From Bacteroidota bacterium (lineage in GTDB: Bacteria; Bacteroidota; Bacteroidia; AKYH767-A; OLB10), in NCBI GenBank assembly GCA_963169675.1, contig CAUJFJ010000338.1, positions 1-47,841 of the forward strand: a DNA stretch of 47,841 nt, read 5' to 3'. Positions 32,498-39,522 of the stretch are shown here, in pieces. The notes beneath the pieces are model-generated. The model made no database searches, was not told the DNA's origin, and saw nothing but the letters and a program-made list of their open reading frames with translations. The position numbers were made by a program, and so were the translations under genes. Every line of letters starts with the position of its first letter. Position 1 is the stretch's first letter.

Positions 32498-33568
32498 ATG
32501 AAAAAACATAATTTTGGTGCAGGTCCGGGTATATTACCTGAAGAAGCACTCCGCAAATCAGCTCAGGCAGTTCTGGATCTTAATGGAACCGGACTTTCTT
32601 TACTGGAAATTTCTCACCGCAGCAAAGATTTTGATGCCATAATTCAAAAGGCAAAATCTCTTGTTAAAGAATTGCTTGGTGTACCTGATAATTATTCTAT
32701 TCTTTTTTTACAAGGAGGTGCAAGTACTCAATTTGCAATGGTTCCATATAACCTATTACCTGCCGATGGAAAGGCTGCTTATATTGATTCCGGCGTGTGG
32801 GCAAATAAAGCAATTAAAGAGGCTAAGATGGTTGGTAATACACAGGTATTAGCTTCTTCCAAAGACAAAAACTATTCTTATGTCCCCAAGGATTTTACTA
32901 TTCCTTCTGATGCAGCATATTTGCATGTAACATCCAACAATACTATTTACGGAACACAAATGAAGTCGTATCCAGACTCCCCAATTCCGGTGGTCTGCGA
33001 TATGTCAAGTGATATTTTCAGTAAACCTGTTGATGTTTCTAAGTTTGATCTTATTTATGCAGGTGCTCAAAAAAATATGGGTCCGGCAGGAGTTACATTG
33101 GTGATTATAAAGAATGACATTTGCGGAAAAGTTAACAGGACGATTCCCACTATGTTAAACTATCAGACACACATCGAAGGTGATTCTTTATATAATACTC
33201 CTCCGGTATTTCCTATTTATGTTTGTATGGCAACTCTGGAGTGGTTACAATCAATTGGTGGTGTGCCGGCAATTGCAAAAATAAATCAGAAAAAAGCAGC
33301 TATGCTTTATGCTGAAATTGACAGTAATCCATTATTTACCGGAACTACAGCAGTTGAAGATCGATCAGAAATGAATGTTTGTTTTCTGATGACTAAACCT
33401 GAACTTGAAGAAGAGTTTTCGAAAGCGGTGAAAGATGCCGGAATAATTGGAATAAAAGGCCACCGTTCAGTAGGTGGATTCAGAGCATCTCTTTACAATG
33501 CACTTCCTATTGAAAGTGTAGAGGTGATGACCAAAGTTATGAGGGAGTTTGCAATGAAAACCGCTTAA
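32498..33568 (+). CDS. serC: 3-phosphoserine/phosphohydroxythreonine aminotransferase
   Basis: [48 protein letters not shown]...[18 protein letters not shown]...[18 protein letters not shown]...[24 protein letters not shown]. Confidence 0.97.
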
Positions 33569-33578
33569 AATAAATTTT

Positions 33579-34550
33579 ATGATCAGAATTTTAGCTAATG
33601 ACGGAATCGATGCAGCAGGAAAAAAATTATTTACTGATGCAGGTTTTGAAATCGTCACTGACAAGGTGCCGCAAGATCAACTTGCTACTGCACTTCTGAA
33701 TTTCGATGGAATTTTGGTAAGAAGTGCTACTCAGGTAAGGAAAGAGCACATTGATGCCTGCCCGAATTTAAAGTTGATTGGTAGAGCAGGAGTGGGAATG
33801 GATAATATTGATGTTGCCTATGCACGCGAAAAAGGTTTGCATGTGGTAAATACACCCGATGCCTCTTCTCAATCTGTGGCAGAATTGGTATTTGCTCATT
33901 TGTTCACCATGACCCGTTTCTTGCATGATGCAAATAGAAAAATGCCAGCTTGTGATTCAAAAGAGATTTTTGATTCTCTGAAAAAACAGTACTCATCCGG
34001 TATTGAATTAAAAGGAAAAACTCTTGGGATTATTGGTTTTGGAAAAATTGGACAAACCGTTGCAAGAATGGCTCTTGGATTAGGGATGAAAGTTATGCCA
34101 TTCAAGCTGAATGCTGCAGATGTTAAAATAGAGATTGATTTTTTTCAAACACACAGCAATGCTTCCCTCATGGTAACTATGAAGTGCGTTCCATTTGAGG
34201 AGTTGTTAAGTCATAGTGATTTTATCACTTTGCATGTTCCTTTTCCTAAAGGTGCAGTTCCGGTAATTGCAGCAAAACAAATTGCTTTAATGAAGAAGGG
34301 AGTGGGAATCGTGAACACAGCAAGAGGAGGGGCAGTGGCTGAACTTGATCTTTTGGATGGGTTAAATTCCGGTAAAATTGGATATGCTGCATTAGACGTT
34401 TTTGAAGGAGAGCCCATGATTAGAAAAGAACTTCGGGAGCATCCAAATGTATCTTTGTCGCCGCATATTGGTGGCTCTACAAAAGAAGCTCAGGAGAGAA
34501 TTGGTATTGAGCTGGCTGAAAAAGTTATTCAATTGTGTAGCAATAAATAA
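33579..34550 (+). CDS. serA: D-2-hydroxyacid (3-phosphoglycerate-type) dehydrogenase
   Basis: LVRSATQVRKEHIDACPNLKLIGRAGVGMDNIDVAYAREKGLHVVNTPDASSQSVAELVFAHLF...GKTLGIIGFGKIGQTVARMALGLGMKV...IVNTARGGAVAELDLL...LSPHIGGSTKEAQERIG; 10 nt after serC. Confidence 0.88.
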   Translation: MIRILANDGIDAAGKKLFTDAGFEIVTDKVPQDQLATALLNFDGILVRSATQVRKEHIDACPNLKLIGRAGVGMDNIDVAYAREKGLHVVNTPDASSQSVAELVFAHLFTMTRFLHDANRKMPACDSKEIFDSLKKQYSSGIELKGKTLGIIGFGKIGQTVARMALGLGMKVMPFKLNAADVKIEIDFFQTHSNASLMVTMKCVPFEELLSHSDFITLHVPFPKGAVPVIAAKQIALMKKGVGIVNTARGGAVAELDLLDGLNSGKIGYAALDVFEGEPMIRKELREHPNVSLSPHIGGSTKEAQERIGIELAEKVIQLCSNK

Positions 34551-34595: not shown

Positions 34596-36245
34596 TTAGT
34601 ACTTTTCAATTTTCGCAATGCTTACTTTGTCGTTTTCTGTAACTACCAATTGATAGAATCCTGATTTTAGATTTGAAAAATCTATCTGAACAGAATTGGA
34701 ATATGACGGAACTTTTAAAATCATAATTTTTCTGCCAGTAATGTCAATAACGTCAATCTGAGCTTCATTCTCGTTTTGAAGTTTTAAAGTTGTTGCTCCA
34801 TTGGTAGGATTTGGGTATGCCATTATGTTTTGAACTGACTCTTGTGAATCTGAAATTCCGGTTGTGTTGTTTTCAACAGAAAAAGAAACCGTGAATCCAT
34901 CACTACCGCCAGTGCTGGTATACACATTGCTTCCTAAAGTTAAATTCACTCCTGTTTGATTTGCTCCAAAGTAACCGGAAATAATTACTTCAGTTCCTTC
35001 CGATTGCATTTCATTGATTAAATCATCTCCAAGTGTGTTGTAAATTTCACAGTCTGAAATTCCATTTAATGCTGATGAGTATGCAACAAATGCATCCAAA
35101 CCACCTGAAGTATAATGAGTGTTTCCGTTGATTGTAAACATATCTAAGAAATATCCTGAAATCGCAACATGATTATTATCGGTAATTGCGATTTTTCCAC
35201 TTTGCTGATACCCTGGAGATTCGAAATAAGTGGCATTAACAGGGTTTCCATTGGCATTCATTTCAAGAATCATCACATTGCGATCGAGACCTGTTGATGG
35301 TTTTCCTGCAAATGAAAAGGTACCTTCGTAGAATGCTGCTATAAATATATTTCCATTTGCAAATGAAATAATTCCTGTTCCTCCGGTTGTAGATGTCATC
35401 ACAGATGAAGGGGTATAGTAAAATAATGGATTACCCAAAGTGTTGTATTTTGCAATCCATAAGTTCTGATTTTGAGACTGAAAGTTTTGTGATCCGTTAG
35501 TGCCTGCATTTAAGGTGCCATTAAAATGTCCCGTGACGTAGATGTTAGCACTTTCATCTGAAAATAAATCCTGTGCATTAACGATTCCTGAATTATGCAC
35601 CGATTCACAAACTGACAATAAAATAGTTCCGGTGTAGTTAAATTTAGCAATACAAACTGCTGAACCTGTTGCAACCTGATCACTGTTGGGAAATTGGTAT
35701 GCGTTAGTGTTAGCCGCAAGAACTAAATTTCCATTTACATCAACAACGCATTTTATACCTTCATCACTTCCTGTTCCTCCAAAAGATTGTAACCACAAAA
35801 TATTCCCTGATTCATTAAATGCTGCCATAAATATATCCGTGCCTCCATTGGATGTCACACTTTCTGAATCTATTGTTAATGTGTTATAAAATGAACCTGT
35901 CACATATATGATACCTGTAGCCGGATCTGAATCAATTGAATTTAATTGTTCATGACATGAATTACCAAATGAAAGTGACCATTCCAGTTGATGCTGTTCA
36001 TTGTAAGCAGTAATGAAGCAATCATTGCTACCTGCAATTGAATTGGTGATGCTTTGTGAAGTCTCATAGTTTGTTATGAAGTTTCCGGCAACAATTTGCT
36101 TTCCATTTACTGTTGTGGTTCCCGCAGTTTGTTGATTCCCTGATCCACTTTCAATGGATGACCAATTTTGAACTATGGAAGCATTTCCAGTTTGAATTGA
36201 TAATGAAGTAATGATTGAGATGATTAATGGAAGAAATTTTTTCAT
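34596..36245 (-). CDS. SBBP-repeat-like beta-propeller secreted protein with T9SS type A sorting domain
   Basis: Repeats IIYVTGSFYNTLTIDSESVTSNGGTDIFMAAFNESGNILWLQSFGGTGSDEG...; C-terminal MAYPNPTNGATTLKLQNENEAQIDVIDITGRKI...LKSGFYQLVVTENDKVSIAKIEKY. Confidence 0.82.
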   Translation of the reverse strand: MKKFLPLIISIITSLSIQTGNASIVQNWSSIESGSGNQQTAGTTTVNGKQIVAGNFITNYETSQSITNSIAGSNDCFITAYNEQHQLEWSLSFGNSCHEQLNSIDSDPATGIIYVTGSFYNTLTIDSESVTSNGGTDIFMAAFNESGNILWLQSFGGTGSDEGIKCVVDVNGNLVLAANTNAYQFPNSDQVATGSAVCIAKFNYTGTILLSVCESVHNSGIVNAQDLFSDESANIYVTGHFNGTLNAGTNGSQNFQSQNQNLWIAKYNTLGNPLFYYTPSSVMTSTTGGTGIISFANGNIFIAAFYEGTFSFAGKPSTGLDRNVMILEMNANGNPVNATYFESPGYQQSGKIAITDNNHVAISGYFLDMFTINGNTHYTSGGLDAFVAYSSALNGISDCEIYNTLGDDLINEMQSEGTEVIISGYFGANQTGVNLTLGSNVYTSTGGSDGFTVSFSVENNTTGISDSQESVQNIMAYPNPTNGATTLKLQNENEAQIDVIDITGRKIMILKVPSYSNSVQIDFSNLKSGFYQLVVTENDKVSIAKIEKY

Positions 36246-36593
36246 TTTGCTTTTTTGGTTAGTTTGATGATGCAAAAGTGAAATTTCCTTTTCAGCAAGA
36301 TGTTATTAAATGAGTAACCTGTTGTTAATGTTTATTCAGTTGCAATTTCTGTTAGTGATTTGCCGTAAATATTTCTTTTGTTGCCTGAAAGCTCGAATGG
36401 AGAATCAATCGGTTGATAATCAGTTTTATGGGATTGAGTAGAATTGTTCCGTAGTAAACAATTCCTTCTTTAAGATGGTACTCTATTTGCTGTTAAATAA
36501 TTGAATATCAGTTTAATATATTGAGTTTAGATAGAGGTGCTGTCATGCCATTTATTAGATTGATTATACATGATGCGTGTATTTTTAATGTAC

Positions 36594-36649: not shown

Positions 36650-37894
36650 ATGGCTATATTAAAAGCATTTAAAGGAATTCGCCCGGTAGCTTCTGAAGTT
36701 GCGAAGGTGGCCTCCAAACCGTATGATGTACTCAACGAGATTGAAGCACGTGAAGAATGTAAGGGTAATCCACATTCCTTTTATCATGTTATAAAACCGG
36801 AAATTGATTTTCCGGACGACTTTGATCATTATGCTCCTGAAATATATTTAAAAGGCAAAGCCAATTTCAATAAGCTTATCAGTGAAGGAGTTTTCTTTCA
36901 TGATAATAAAGAGTGCTTATATATATATCAACAAACCATGAATGGAAGAAAACAAAATGGTATTGTTGGTTGTGCAGCTGTTTCTGATTATGTTAATGAT
37001 GTGATTAAAAAGCATGAGCTAACACGTCCCGATAAGGAAGAGGACCGAAAGAAACATGTGAGGGTAAGTGGTATGAATTATGAGCCGGTATTTTTCGCTT
37101 ATCCTAAGGTGGTTGCACTTGACGAAATTGTCAATCGAATCATTCAGGATAAACCGGAGTATGATTTTGTTGCAGATGATGGAATTGGTCATACCTTTTG
37201 GGTGGTAAATGACGATGCAACAATTCAGGCTATCATTGGTCATTTTGCGAATATTAAGGCAACTTATGTAGCGGATGGACATCATCGTACTGCAGCAGCA
37301 GCTTTGGTTGGGAAAGAACGAATGGATGGGAATCCAACCCACACTGGAAATGAAGAATATAATTTTTTCCTTGCGGTACATTTTCCGGATGATCAGTTGG
37401 CAATCATGGATTATAACCGTGTGGTTAAAGATCTGAACGGCCATTCATCAAGTGAATTTATTGATAAGCTGAAACAAAATTTTGACGTTGCAGAAAAAGG
37501 TTCCTCCATATTTAAACCCGATCAACTGCATACTTTTGGGATGTATCTGGAAGGTAAATGGTATTCTTTAAAAGCTAAAAATGGAACATATAATGATCAG
37601 GATCCTATCGGGGTTTTAGATGTAACCATTCTTTCAGACAAAATTCTTGGTCCTTTATTAAACCTTCATGACCTCAGAACCGACAAGCGTATCGAGTTTG
37701 TAGGTGGACTTCGTGGCTTGGGGGAATTGGAGAAAAGAGTAAATTCCGGCGAAATGAAAGTTGCCTTTGCCTTATATCCGGTTACTATGAAGCAATTGAT
37801 TGATATTGCCGATACAGGAAACATTATGCCACCGAAAACTACCTGGTTTGAGCCTAAATTAAGAAGCGGCCTGGTAGTGCATAGCATTGATTAA
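36650..37894 (+). CDS. DUF1015 domain-containing protein with ADGHHR motif
   Basis: MAILKAFKGIRPVASEVAKVASKPYDVLN...NPHSFYHVIKPEIDF...IKKHELTRPDKEEDR...ATYVADGHHRTAAAALVGKER. Confidence 0.9.
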   Translation: MAILKAFKGIRPVASEVAKVASKPYDVLNEIEAREECKGNPHSFYHVIKPEIDFPDDFDHYAPEIYLKGKANFNKLISEGVFFHDNKECLYIYQQTMNGRKQNGIVGCAAVSDYVNDVIKKHELTRPDKEEDRKKHVRVSGMNYEPVFFAYPKVVALDEIVNRIIQDKPEYDFVADDGIGHTFWVVNDDATIQAIIGHFANIKATYVADGHHRTAAAALVGKERMDGNPTHTGNEEYNFFLAVHFPDDQLAIMDYNRVVKDLNGHSSSEFIDKLKQNFDVAEKGSSIFKPDQLHTFGMYLEGKWYSLKAKNGTYNDQDPIGVLDVTILSDKILGPLLNLHDLRTDKRIEFVGGLRGLGELEKRVNSGEMKVAFALYPVTMKQLIDIADTGNIMPPKTTWFEPKLRSGLVVHSID

Positions 37895-37904
37895 TGTGAT
37901 TCAA

Positions 37905-38846
37905 ATGTCATTTTTAAAAATAAGATGGGCCCAGTTTTTGAGAGAACTCAAATCACTGGGTCTTTTTTATGCATTAATACTTATTTCTGGAATAATTGGA
38001 ATCTTGTGGGTGTTTTATCAGGTGCAGGTTAAAACCGAACCCCGATATGGTTCAATGCTGTTTATTGTTGCTTTTATTCTAAGCATTCATTTAAACAGGA
38101 AAGATCACAGATTTATCAGACTCGTATCGGATCAGCCTTATTTGGTTTATATTTCTGAATATGGTTTTTTAGCAATTGTTTTTATGGCTCTTTCATTCCT
38201 GAAGTCGCATGCTTTTACAATGTTCTTATTAATTCCTGCAATTGCTTCAATATCCTTAATAAATGTAAACTTTATTAGTAATACTAAATCGGGCTTTATT
38301 GGCAGATGGATTCCTGCAAAAAATTATGAATGGAAATCGGGTGTCAGATCTACCGGTTGGTTTATTCCATTTCTGATTTTATGTGGTGTGCTTTTAGCTC
38401 CATTGCCCTTTGCCTCGTTGGTAATTTGTTGGGTAATTCTGGCTTTAAGTATTTCTTTCTATGAGCAGGGTGAATCCCGGGAAATGATCCTTTCGTTTAT
38501 GCAGTCTCCACGAAGGTTCTTACTGAACAAAACCTTAATTCATGCATTGACTTTTTTGATGGGTATTCTACCTGTACTAATTACAAATTTTGCTTTTTTC
38601 CCGGATAAATGGTGGCTTGGACTTAGTTTCATACTTTTTTGTGTGATTAATATTGCTGTCTTTGTAACATCAAAATATGCTGTATGGCACCATGGCCAAC
38701 AAAATAAATCTCAATCTGTTTTAAATTCCATTGGCATGATCGGACTTTTCATTCCTTTCTTATTGCCCATTCCAATTGTTAATCTTATCCGGAATTACCG
38801 GAAAGCAACTCACAATTTAAGCCCTTTGCTAAATGATTTCAATTAA
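37905..38846 (+). CDS. Polytopic membrane protein, probable permease partner of the downstream ABC ATPase
   Basis: Multiple hydrophobic segments; start 10 nt after the DUF1015 stop; overlaps the ATPase start by 14 nt. Confidence 0.65.
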   Translation: MSFLKIRWAQFLRELKSLGLFYALILISGIIGILWVFYQVQVKTEPRYGSMLFIVAFILSIHLNRKDHRFIRLVSDQPYLVYISEYGFLAIVFMALSFLKSHAFTMFLLIPAIASISLINVNFISNTKSGFIGRWIPAKNYEWKSGVRSTGWFIPFLILCGVLLAPLPFASLVICWVILALSISFYEQGESREMILSFMQSPRRFLLNKTLIHALTFLMGILPVLITNFAFFPDKWWLGLSFILFCVINIAVFVTSKYAVWHHGQQNKSQSVLNSIGMIGLFIPFLLPIPIVNLIRNYRKATHNLSPLLNDFN

Positions 38847-39522
38847 TGGTTTGAATATTAGTTATGGGAATCATCAAGTGATTAATAATTTGAAGTGGGA
38901 GCTTCAGGAGGGTCTTATTCATGGCCTTGTTGGATTGAATGGTTCCGGTAAAACCACACTGTTGCAAACGATGTGTGGTATGATCAAACCTCAATCGGGA
39001 CAAGTTCTTTATCGTGGTGAAAAATTTACCCCTCATAAAATTTCGATGCTTGAAACGGAGCCCTATTTTTATAAAGGGATCACCGGTTTAGAGTATTTAC
39101 ATTTATTCAAATCTCCGGAAAATTCTACTTTTAATGTTCAGGAATGGCTTGATTTATTTTCAGTGCCCGGTAATGAATTAATTGATAATTATTCAACCGG
39201 TATTAGAAAAAAACTTGCTTTGATCGGCATTTGTAAATTAAGTCGACCGGTTATACTTCTCGATGAACCATTTAATGGATTGGATCTGGAGTCTTCCAGA
39301 ATTCTGACCACCGTTTTGAAAAAATTGGTTTCAAAAGGTCATACAATTATAATTACATCTCACATATTGGAATCCCTTACAGGTCTGTGTACTTTTATAC
39401 ATTATCTCAGAAATGGTGTCATAGCAAATATTTTTAATGCAGAGGATTCAGCTTTAATTGATAAAACTATTTTTGCTGAACTTGATGCCGGAATCGAGAA
39501 GAAAATAGATGGTATTCTCTAG
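38833..39522 (+). CDS. ABC transporter ATP-binding protein
   Basis: Walker A GLNGSGKTTLL; signature-region NYSTGIRKKLALI; Walker B PVILLDEPFNGLD; switch His ITSHILE. Confidence 0.92.
   Translation: MISINGLNISYGNHQVINNLKWELQEGLIHGLVGLNGSGKTTLLQTMCGMIKPQSGQVLYRGEKFTPHKISMLETEPYFYKGITGLEYLHLFKSPENSTFNVQEWLDLFSVPGNELIDNYSTGIRKKLALIGICKLSRPVILLDEPFNGLDLESSRILTTVLKKLVSKGHTIIITSHILESLTGLCTFIHYLRNGVIANIFNAEDSALIDKTIFAELDAGIEKKIDGIL

Follow-up and report, generated by a model that had tools for sequence, protein, structure and literature searches.

Which reaction is carried out by a DUF1015 protein encoded close to serC and serA in a genome in which no serB is visible? This question is raised by a 47,841-nucleotide stretch of Bacteroidota DNA (hereafter, the window), for which the original prediction had proposed a role of the protein in the phosphoserine/serine step. 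A search of the open-access literature identified no functional study of DUF1015/COG4198. SerK and SbnI, both free serine kinases, are members of the ParB-CTPase/sulfiredoxin fold and, in the accessible part of a 2025 survey of this fold, DUF1015 is listed among the fused domains and among the candidates for nucleotide-binding tests and is not named among the nucleotide binders (PMC12704722); DUF1015 had, therefore, already been linked in part to a ParB-type fold. What is new here is the link to the free serine kinases, the serC-serA module and the distribution of SerB.

The DUF1015 gene and its surroundings

The coordinates of the relevant features are summarized in Table 1. The DUF1015 gene encodes a complete PF06245 protein (residues 4-326; E 6.4e-110, 367.5 bits versus a cut-off of 25.8) that has zero matches in NCBIfam and, thus, does not match the SerB profile TIGR00338 (HAD type). 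The motif YVADGHHRTAAAA (residues 206-218) is present as originally reported but is located at nucleotides 37265-37303 rather than 37262-37300, i.e. one codon downstream. ADGHHR is invariant across 14 aligned homologues and conserved in 116-117 of 117 more diverse DUF1015 proteins and is, therefore, not a chance motif. In the alignment of these 117 proteins, which reaches down to about 22% identity, the near-invariant positions include P24-Y25-D26 (conserved in 116-117 of 117), H122-E123, D132-R133, A208-R213, M393-P394, K396, T398, F400, P402-K403 and G407. One row of the alignment (L101), the branch of which is unusually long in the tree, is probably a wrong ORF, and several of the 116/117 counts are probably due to it.

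Table 1. Positions of genes and protein motifs in the window
Feature	Coordinates	Strand	Evidence
serC, phosphoserine aminotransferase	32498..33568	+	NF003764 and TIGR01364 above cut-off
serA-like 3-phosphoglycerate dehydrogenase, 323 aa, short form	33579..34550	+	PGDH-like; TIGR01327 best, under cut-off
T9SS sorting-domain protein, between serA and DUF1015	34596..36275	-	profile match
DUF1015 protein (414 aa, ATG start), predicted to fold like SerK/SbnI	36650..37894	+	Pfam, AlphaFold2, Foldseek, hhalign
PYDV motif, residues 24-27	36719..36730	+	homologue alignment
H122-E123, candidate counterpart of SerK H29-E30 (suggestive)	37013..37018	+	kept in 116/117 homologues
ADGHHR, residues 208-213	37271..37288	+	aligned with SerK VDGHHR
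C-terminal MPPKTTWFEPKLR, residues 393-405	37826..37864	+	aligned with SerK YSPKTTRHVLPF

The neighbourhood is as originally described: serC and serA lie upstream of DUF1015 on the same strand, and a single T9SS gene on the opposite strand separates serA from DUF1015. At the locus of the nearest relative (L042; 69% identity), the T9SS gene is absent and serA ends ~36 bases before DUF1015, suggesting that the T9SS gene in the window is a local insertion. The lack of a visible serB extends from the window to the whole 3.87-Mb assembly (97% complete), in which all matches to TIGR00338 fall below its cut-off, the highest-scoring one having 28 bits and lying within a 712-aa frame. The source genome has one DUF1015 gene. 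Just past this gene, a membrane protein and an ABC ATPase are encoded as a pair (37887-39522), the first ORF of which, called from a TTG start, overlaps with the DUF1015 stop by 8 bases.

Likeness to the free serine kinases

An AlphaFold2 model of the DUF1015 protein built from 14 Bacteroidota sequences has a mean pLDDT of 92.9 and a pTM of 0.88. A Foldseek search of the PDB with this model gave nine matches with E <= 1e-3 (1.1e-8 to 2.9e-5), all of which are of free serine kinase types: (i) five entries of SerK (TK0378), the ADP-dependent free serine kinase of Thermococcus (5x0k, 5x0e, 5x0b, 5x0j, 5x0g), (ii) the P. furiosus SerK homologue (1vk1), and (iii) SbnI, the free serine kinase encoded in the staphyloferrin B cluster (6nr6, 5uje, 5ujd). 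The tenth match was noise (E 0.07), no significant match to ParB or Srx in the PDB was obtained, and the ParB matches of the model were weak and to viral models only. The TM-scores are partial (0.36 by query and 0.57 by target for 1vk1) with an rmsd of about 6-7 Å, suggesting that the domains match with large insertions or another domain arrangement. Searching the PDB by sequence, using the protein as well as the profile as queries, gave nothing meaningful and no DUF1015 structure, and the fold accordingly rests on prediction. When residues 112-414 were folded alone, SerK and SbnI were still the sole matches but weaker (E 6.7e-6), the TM-scores to the target were 0.37-0.48 and the C-terminal motif was disordered, suggesting that residues 1-111 contribute to the fold. 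In total, the models predict with high confidence that DUF1015 has the free-serine-kinase fold of SerK and SbnI, in line with the original prediction.

The comparison with the SerK sequence, which is identical to that of PDB 5x0b as judged by a PDB search, points in the same direction. Using hhalign, the profile of 14 DUF1015 proteins aligned with the single SerK sequence with an E-value of 2.7e-6 over 154 columns and with 26% identity, from DGHHR to PKTT (residues 204-398 in DUF1015 and 64-224 in SerK). The alignment pairs ADGHHR with VDGHHR, in line with the proposed resemblance to the phosphate-binding motif of ParB/sulfiredoxin-fold proteins, and GNIMPPKTTW with GEVYSPKTTR. A deeper DUF1015 profile gave an E-value of 2.4e-6, the best local stretch being the C-terminal 55 columns. 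Thus, DUF1015 shares with SerK the DGHHR nucleotide/phosphate motif, the C-terminal PK(S/T)T motif and the helix preceding it. The two proteins differ in length (242 aa in SerK versus about 410 aa in DUF1015) because DUF1015 has ~110 extra N-terminal residues and an insertion before DGHHR, and in hmmscan at E <= 10 DUF1015 matched neither ParB_N (PF02195) nor SerK_C (PF18231), whereas SerK matched both. With SbnI, DUF1015 shares the predicted fold, and the two are about 10% identical when aligned by structure. In the N-terminal region, H122-E123 is in register with H29-E30 of SerK, the complexes of which carry a mutation at E30. This register has a score of 14.3 compared to a shuffle mean of 10.0 and is below the shuffle maximum of 15.7, and it was not decided by folding, as the model of residues 112-414 matches SerK less well; the suggestion that E123 is the counterpart of the catalytic E30 is, therefore, only a lead.

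Gene context and the distribution of SerB

To place the window in a wider context, 198 Bacteroidota genomes with a completeness of at least 90% were surveyed. DUF1015 is present in 173 of them, nearly always as a single copy, and serC (TIGR01364) in 113, 102 of which also have DUF1015 as judged from the 20 DUF1015-negative genomes listed; because five more negatives exist, the 102 could include a few genomes without DUF1015. DUF1015 lies at most 10 kb from serC in 74 of the 91 genomes in which both positions are listed, and in all but two of these 74 (72) the two genes share a strand. Counting loci with a given family in the fetched flanks (80 Bacteroidota-type loci from named genomes, and three from a plasmid collection), serA is a neighbour of DUF1015 at 56 and serC at 52 of the 80 loci, far above the next family (16), so the adjacency suspected from the window is not random. 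The usual order is serC-serA-DUF1015 on the same strand. It is also found in a Listeria chromosome and in Enterococcus gilvus, where there are no gaps between the genes, DUF1015 being present in Firmicutes and Actinobacteria as well; the trio has been shown without comment on its function in Porphyromonas (PMC11316588). DUF1015 matches in phage records look like mis-assigned bacterial DNA and were set aside. The serA slot next to DUF1015 is occupied by two types of dehydrogenases (compared for the window gene at 33579-34550 and loci L042-L121): the type of the window is found with 48-65% identity in several relatives, and the other, ~30% identical, in Bacteroides-like genomes. In a genome without a TIGR01364 serC, an apparently different class V aminotransferase, perhaps an alternative SerC, is encoded directly upstream of DUF1015 (L137:5029-6102). 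A scan for riboswitches and T-boxes at gathering scores in the window and 13 related loci found none near the serC-serA-DUF1015 operons, the one hit, in a plasmid, being a cobalamin riboswitch encoded on the other strand.

SerB-like proteins were counted at E 1e-12, true SerB being those above the TIGR00338 cut-off; by this standard, 55 of the 198 genomes have true SerB. Among the 102 genomes with serC and DUF1015 (by the negatives listed), five have true SerB, nine have a weak SerB-like match and the other 88 have neither, genomes of the last kind occurring in about 21 of 23 families. Most of the genomes with DUF1015 and serC, therefore, lack serB. Among the 11 serC genomes listed as lacking DUF1015, the corresponding numbers are five, four and two (Fisher tests ignoring descent, p 6.5e-4 for true SerB and 5.8e-6 for any match). 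Given that the tests ignore descent and that the five genomes with true SerB and without DUF1015 all belong to one genus, the anticorrelation is itself weak. Of 50 further named genomes with DUF1015, most of which have the operon, nine have true SerB and 41 have none above the cut-off; no SerB was found in the Listeria record with serC-serA-DUF1015. SerB and the trio occur together in Bacteroides ihuae, B. oleiciplenus and Parabacteroides faecis. In Prevotella disiens, which has serC-serA-DUF1015, a serB match is broken by stops (G207:C186:5493-6139), and is either a decayed gene or an assembly error.

In the tree, the DUF1015 proteins linked to serC and serA form a clade of 49 rows (support 100/100) that includes Listeria, Enterococcus and alphaproteobacterial MAGs. 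A divergent clade of eight rows (98/96) contains Monoglobus and the genomes of the groups f17, which from its gene content may be Chlorobi, f28 and f30. Its members have ~25% identity and other neighbours, e.g. tsaE/tsaB-like and scpA-like genes (named by eye) near L132:5638-6912, and those from other lineages of the phylum (L132, L134, L139, L143) keep HE, ADGHHR and PKST. SerC-negative, SerB-positive genomes were considered as counter-examples and rejected, as those examined carry DUF1015 of this divergent clade with other neighbours. Four alphaproteobacterial gut MAGs of 0.9-1.0 Mb (L072, L093, L110, L115) have a Bacteroidales-type DUF1015 nested in the clade of this type and have neither serC nor SerB, their sole PF00266 match being a SufS-like protein. 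This distribution apparently reflects horizontal transfer of a stand-alone gene and counts against a simple tie between DUF1015 and SerC.

Proposed function and its direction

Combining the predicted fold, the profile homology and the serC-serA context, all of which support the role originally proposed, we consider it likely that DUF1015 represents a branch, in bacteria, of the SerK/SbnI-type free-serine phosphotransferases and functions in a module with SerC and SerA. Because its predicted fold is that of the free serine kinases, DUF1015 probably interconverts serine and phosphoserine, the substrate and chemistry being deduced by analogy with SerK and SbnI. In this model, (i) a nucleotide would most likely be bound at ADGHHR, (ii) phosphate would be passed between the nucleotide and free L-serine or O-phospho-L-serine, and (iii) SerC, SerA and DUF1015 would constitute a three-gene module joining serine and 3-phosphoglycerate.

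The fold and the operon module are supported by computation, and the direction of the reaction is the weakest step of the explanation. We favor the kinase direction, serine to phosphoserine, and give it about an even chance; SerC and SerA would then return carbon from serine or glycine to 3-phosphoglycerate, or else the phosphoserine would be used elsewhere. For this direction speaks that the known serine-acting enzymes of the SerK/SbnI fold are kinases. Similarly, in Desulfurococcales serK adjoins the genes for 3-phosphoglycerate dehydrogenase and an aminotransferase, as DUF1015 does, and a route for assimilation of serine to 3-phosphoglycerate has been proposed (PMC5120207). SbnI differs from DUF1015 in having siderophore genes as its context, where the main context of DUF1015 is serC-serA. 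However, on a Streptomyces longwoodensis plasmid (NZ_CP107737.1; L156:4427-8170), an SbnA-like PLP enzyme, for which SbnA is the best match, below the SbnA model cut-off, is followed by an MdtH-like MFS exporter and a divergent DUF1015, which thus has the position that SbnI has near SbnA. This locus is flanked by metal-transport genes and possibly functions in a diaminopropionate-type metallophore pathway or a related one. We also count for the kinase direction the single-aptamer glycine riboswitches that have been reported to precede COG4198 (= DUF1015) genes in Firmicutes (PMC2211319). The many serC-serA genomes without any SerB are hard to reconcile with a role that is purely catabolic.

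These genomes are an argument for the phosphatase direction, to which we assign a clearly lower probability. Here, DUF1015 would be the missing phosphoserine phosphatase: a protein of the SerK fold that has become a hydrolase, or passes phosphate from phosphoserine to an acceptor, and so carries out the last step of serine synthesis in the absence of SerB. The operon has a biosynthetic look, and the counts for serC genomes with and without DUF1015, the 41 named genomes and the Listeria record all agree with this possibility, as do 450 gut Firmicutes that have SerA and SerC and lack all four SerB types (PMC9026213). SerB would share the metabolite and the pathway position with DUF1015, with an unrelated fold. 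However, the known enzymes of this fold are kinases, true SerB and the operon coexist in Bacteroides, Parabacteroides and others, the four small alphaproteobacterial MAGs retain DUF1015 without SerC, and the anticorrelation is subject to the effects of descent noted above. Running a nucleotide kinase in reverse is energetically uphill and, therefore, hydrolysis by DUF1015 would need new chemistry. We are slightly more doubtful still about the broader proposal that DUF1015 is the unrecognised, dephosphorylating phosphoserine-to-serine enzyme, of SerK fold, in much of the Bacteroidota and Firmicutes.

Two further readings dispense with serine phosphotransfer. The ParB fold also serves in switches and scaffolds, according to the fold survey (PMC12704722), and together with the constant serA and serC neighbourhood this would fit a non-catalytic sensor of a nucleotide or of phosphoserine that regulates SerA or SerC. 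Given that three motif blocks are near-invariant, two of them aligned with SerK, and that DUF1015 is found without serC and beside an SbnA-like enzyme, we regard such a sensor as improbable. If anything, it is even less probable that DUF1015 phosphorylates another small hydroxy-metabolite, e.g. homoserine, with its proximity to serC and serA being incidental: the divergent Monoglobus member precedes hom-thrB-lysC, but thrB is itself present at that locus, and in the main clade serC and serA are the prevailing neighbours.

For a widespread family without an assigned function, kinship to the free serine kinases supplies a substrate hypothesis, and it bears on the gap presented by hundreds of genomes that have SerA and SerC and no recognisable phosphoserine phosphatase. 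If the phosphatase direction were true, this reported gap in serine biosynthesis would be closed. If DUF1015 is a kinase, as we favor, serine in bacteria could return to 3-phosphoglycerate by a route otherwise proposed for archaea (PMC5120207).
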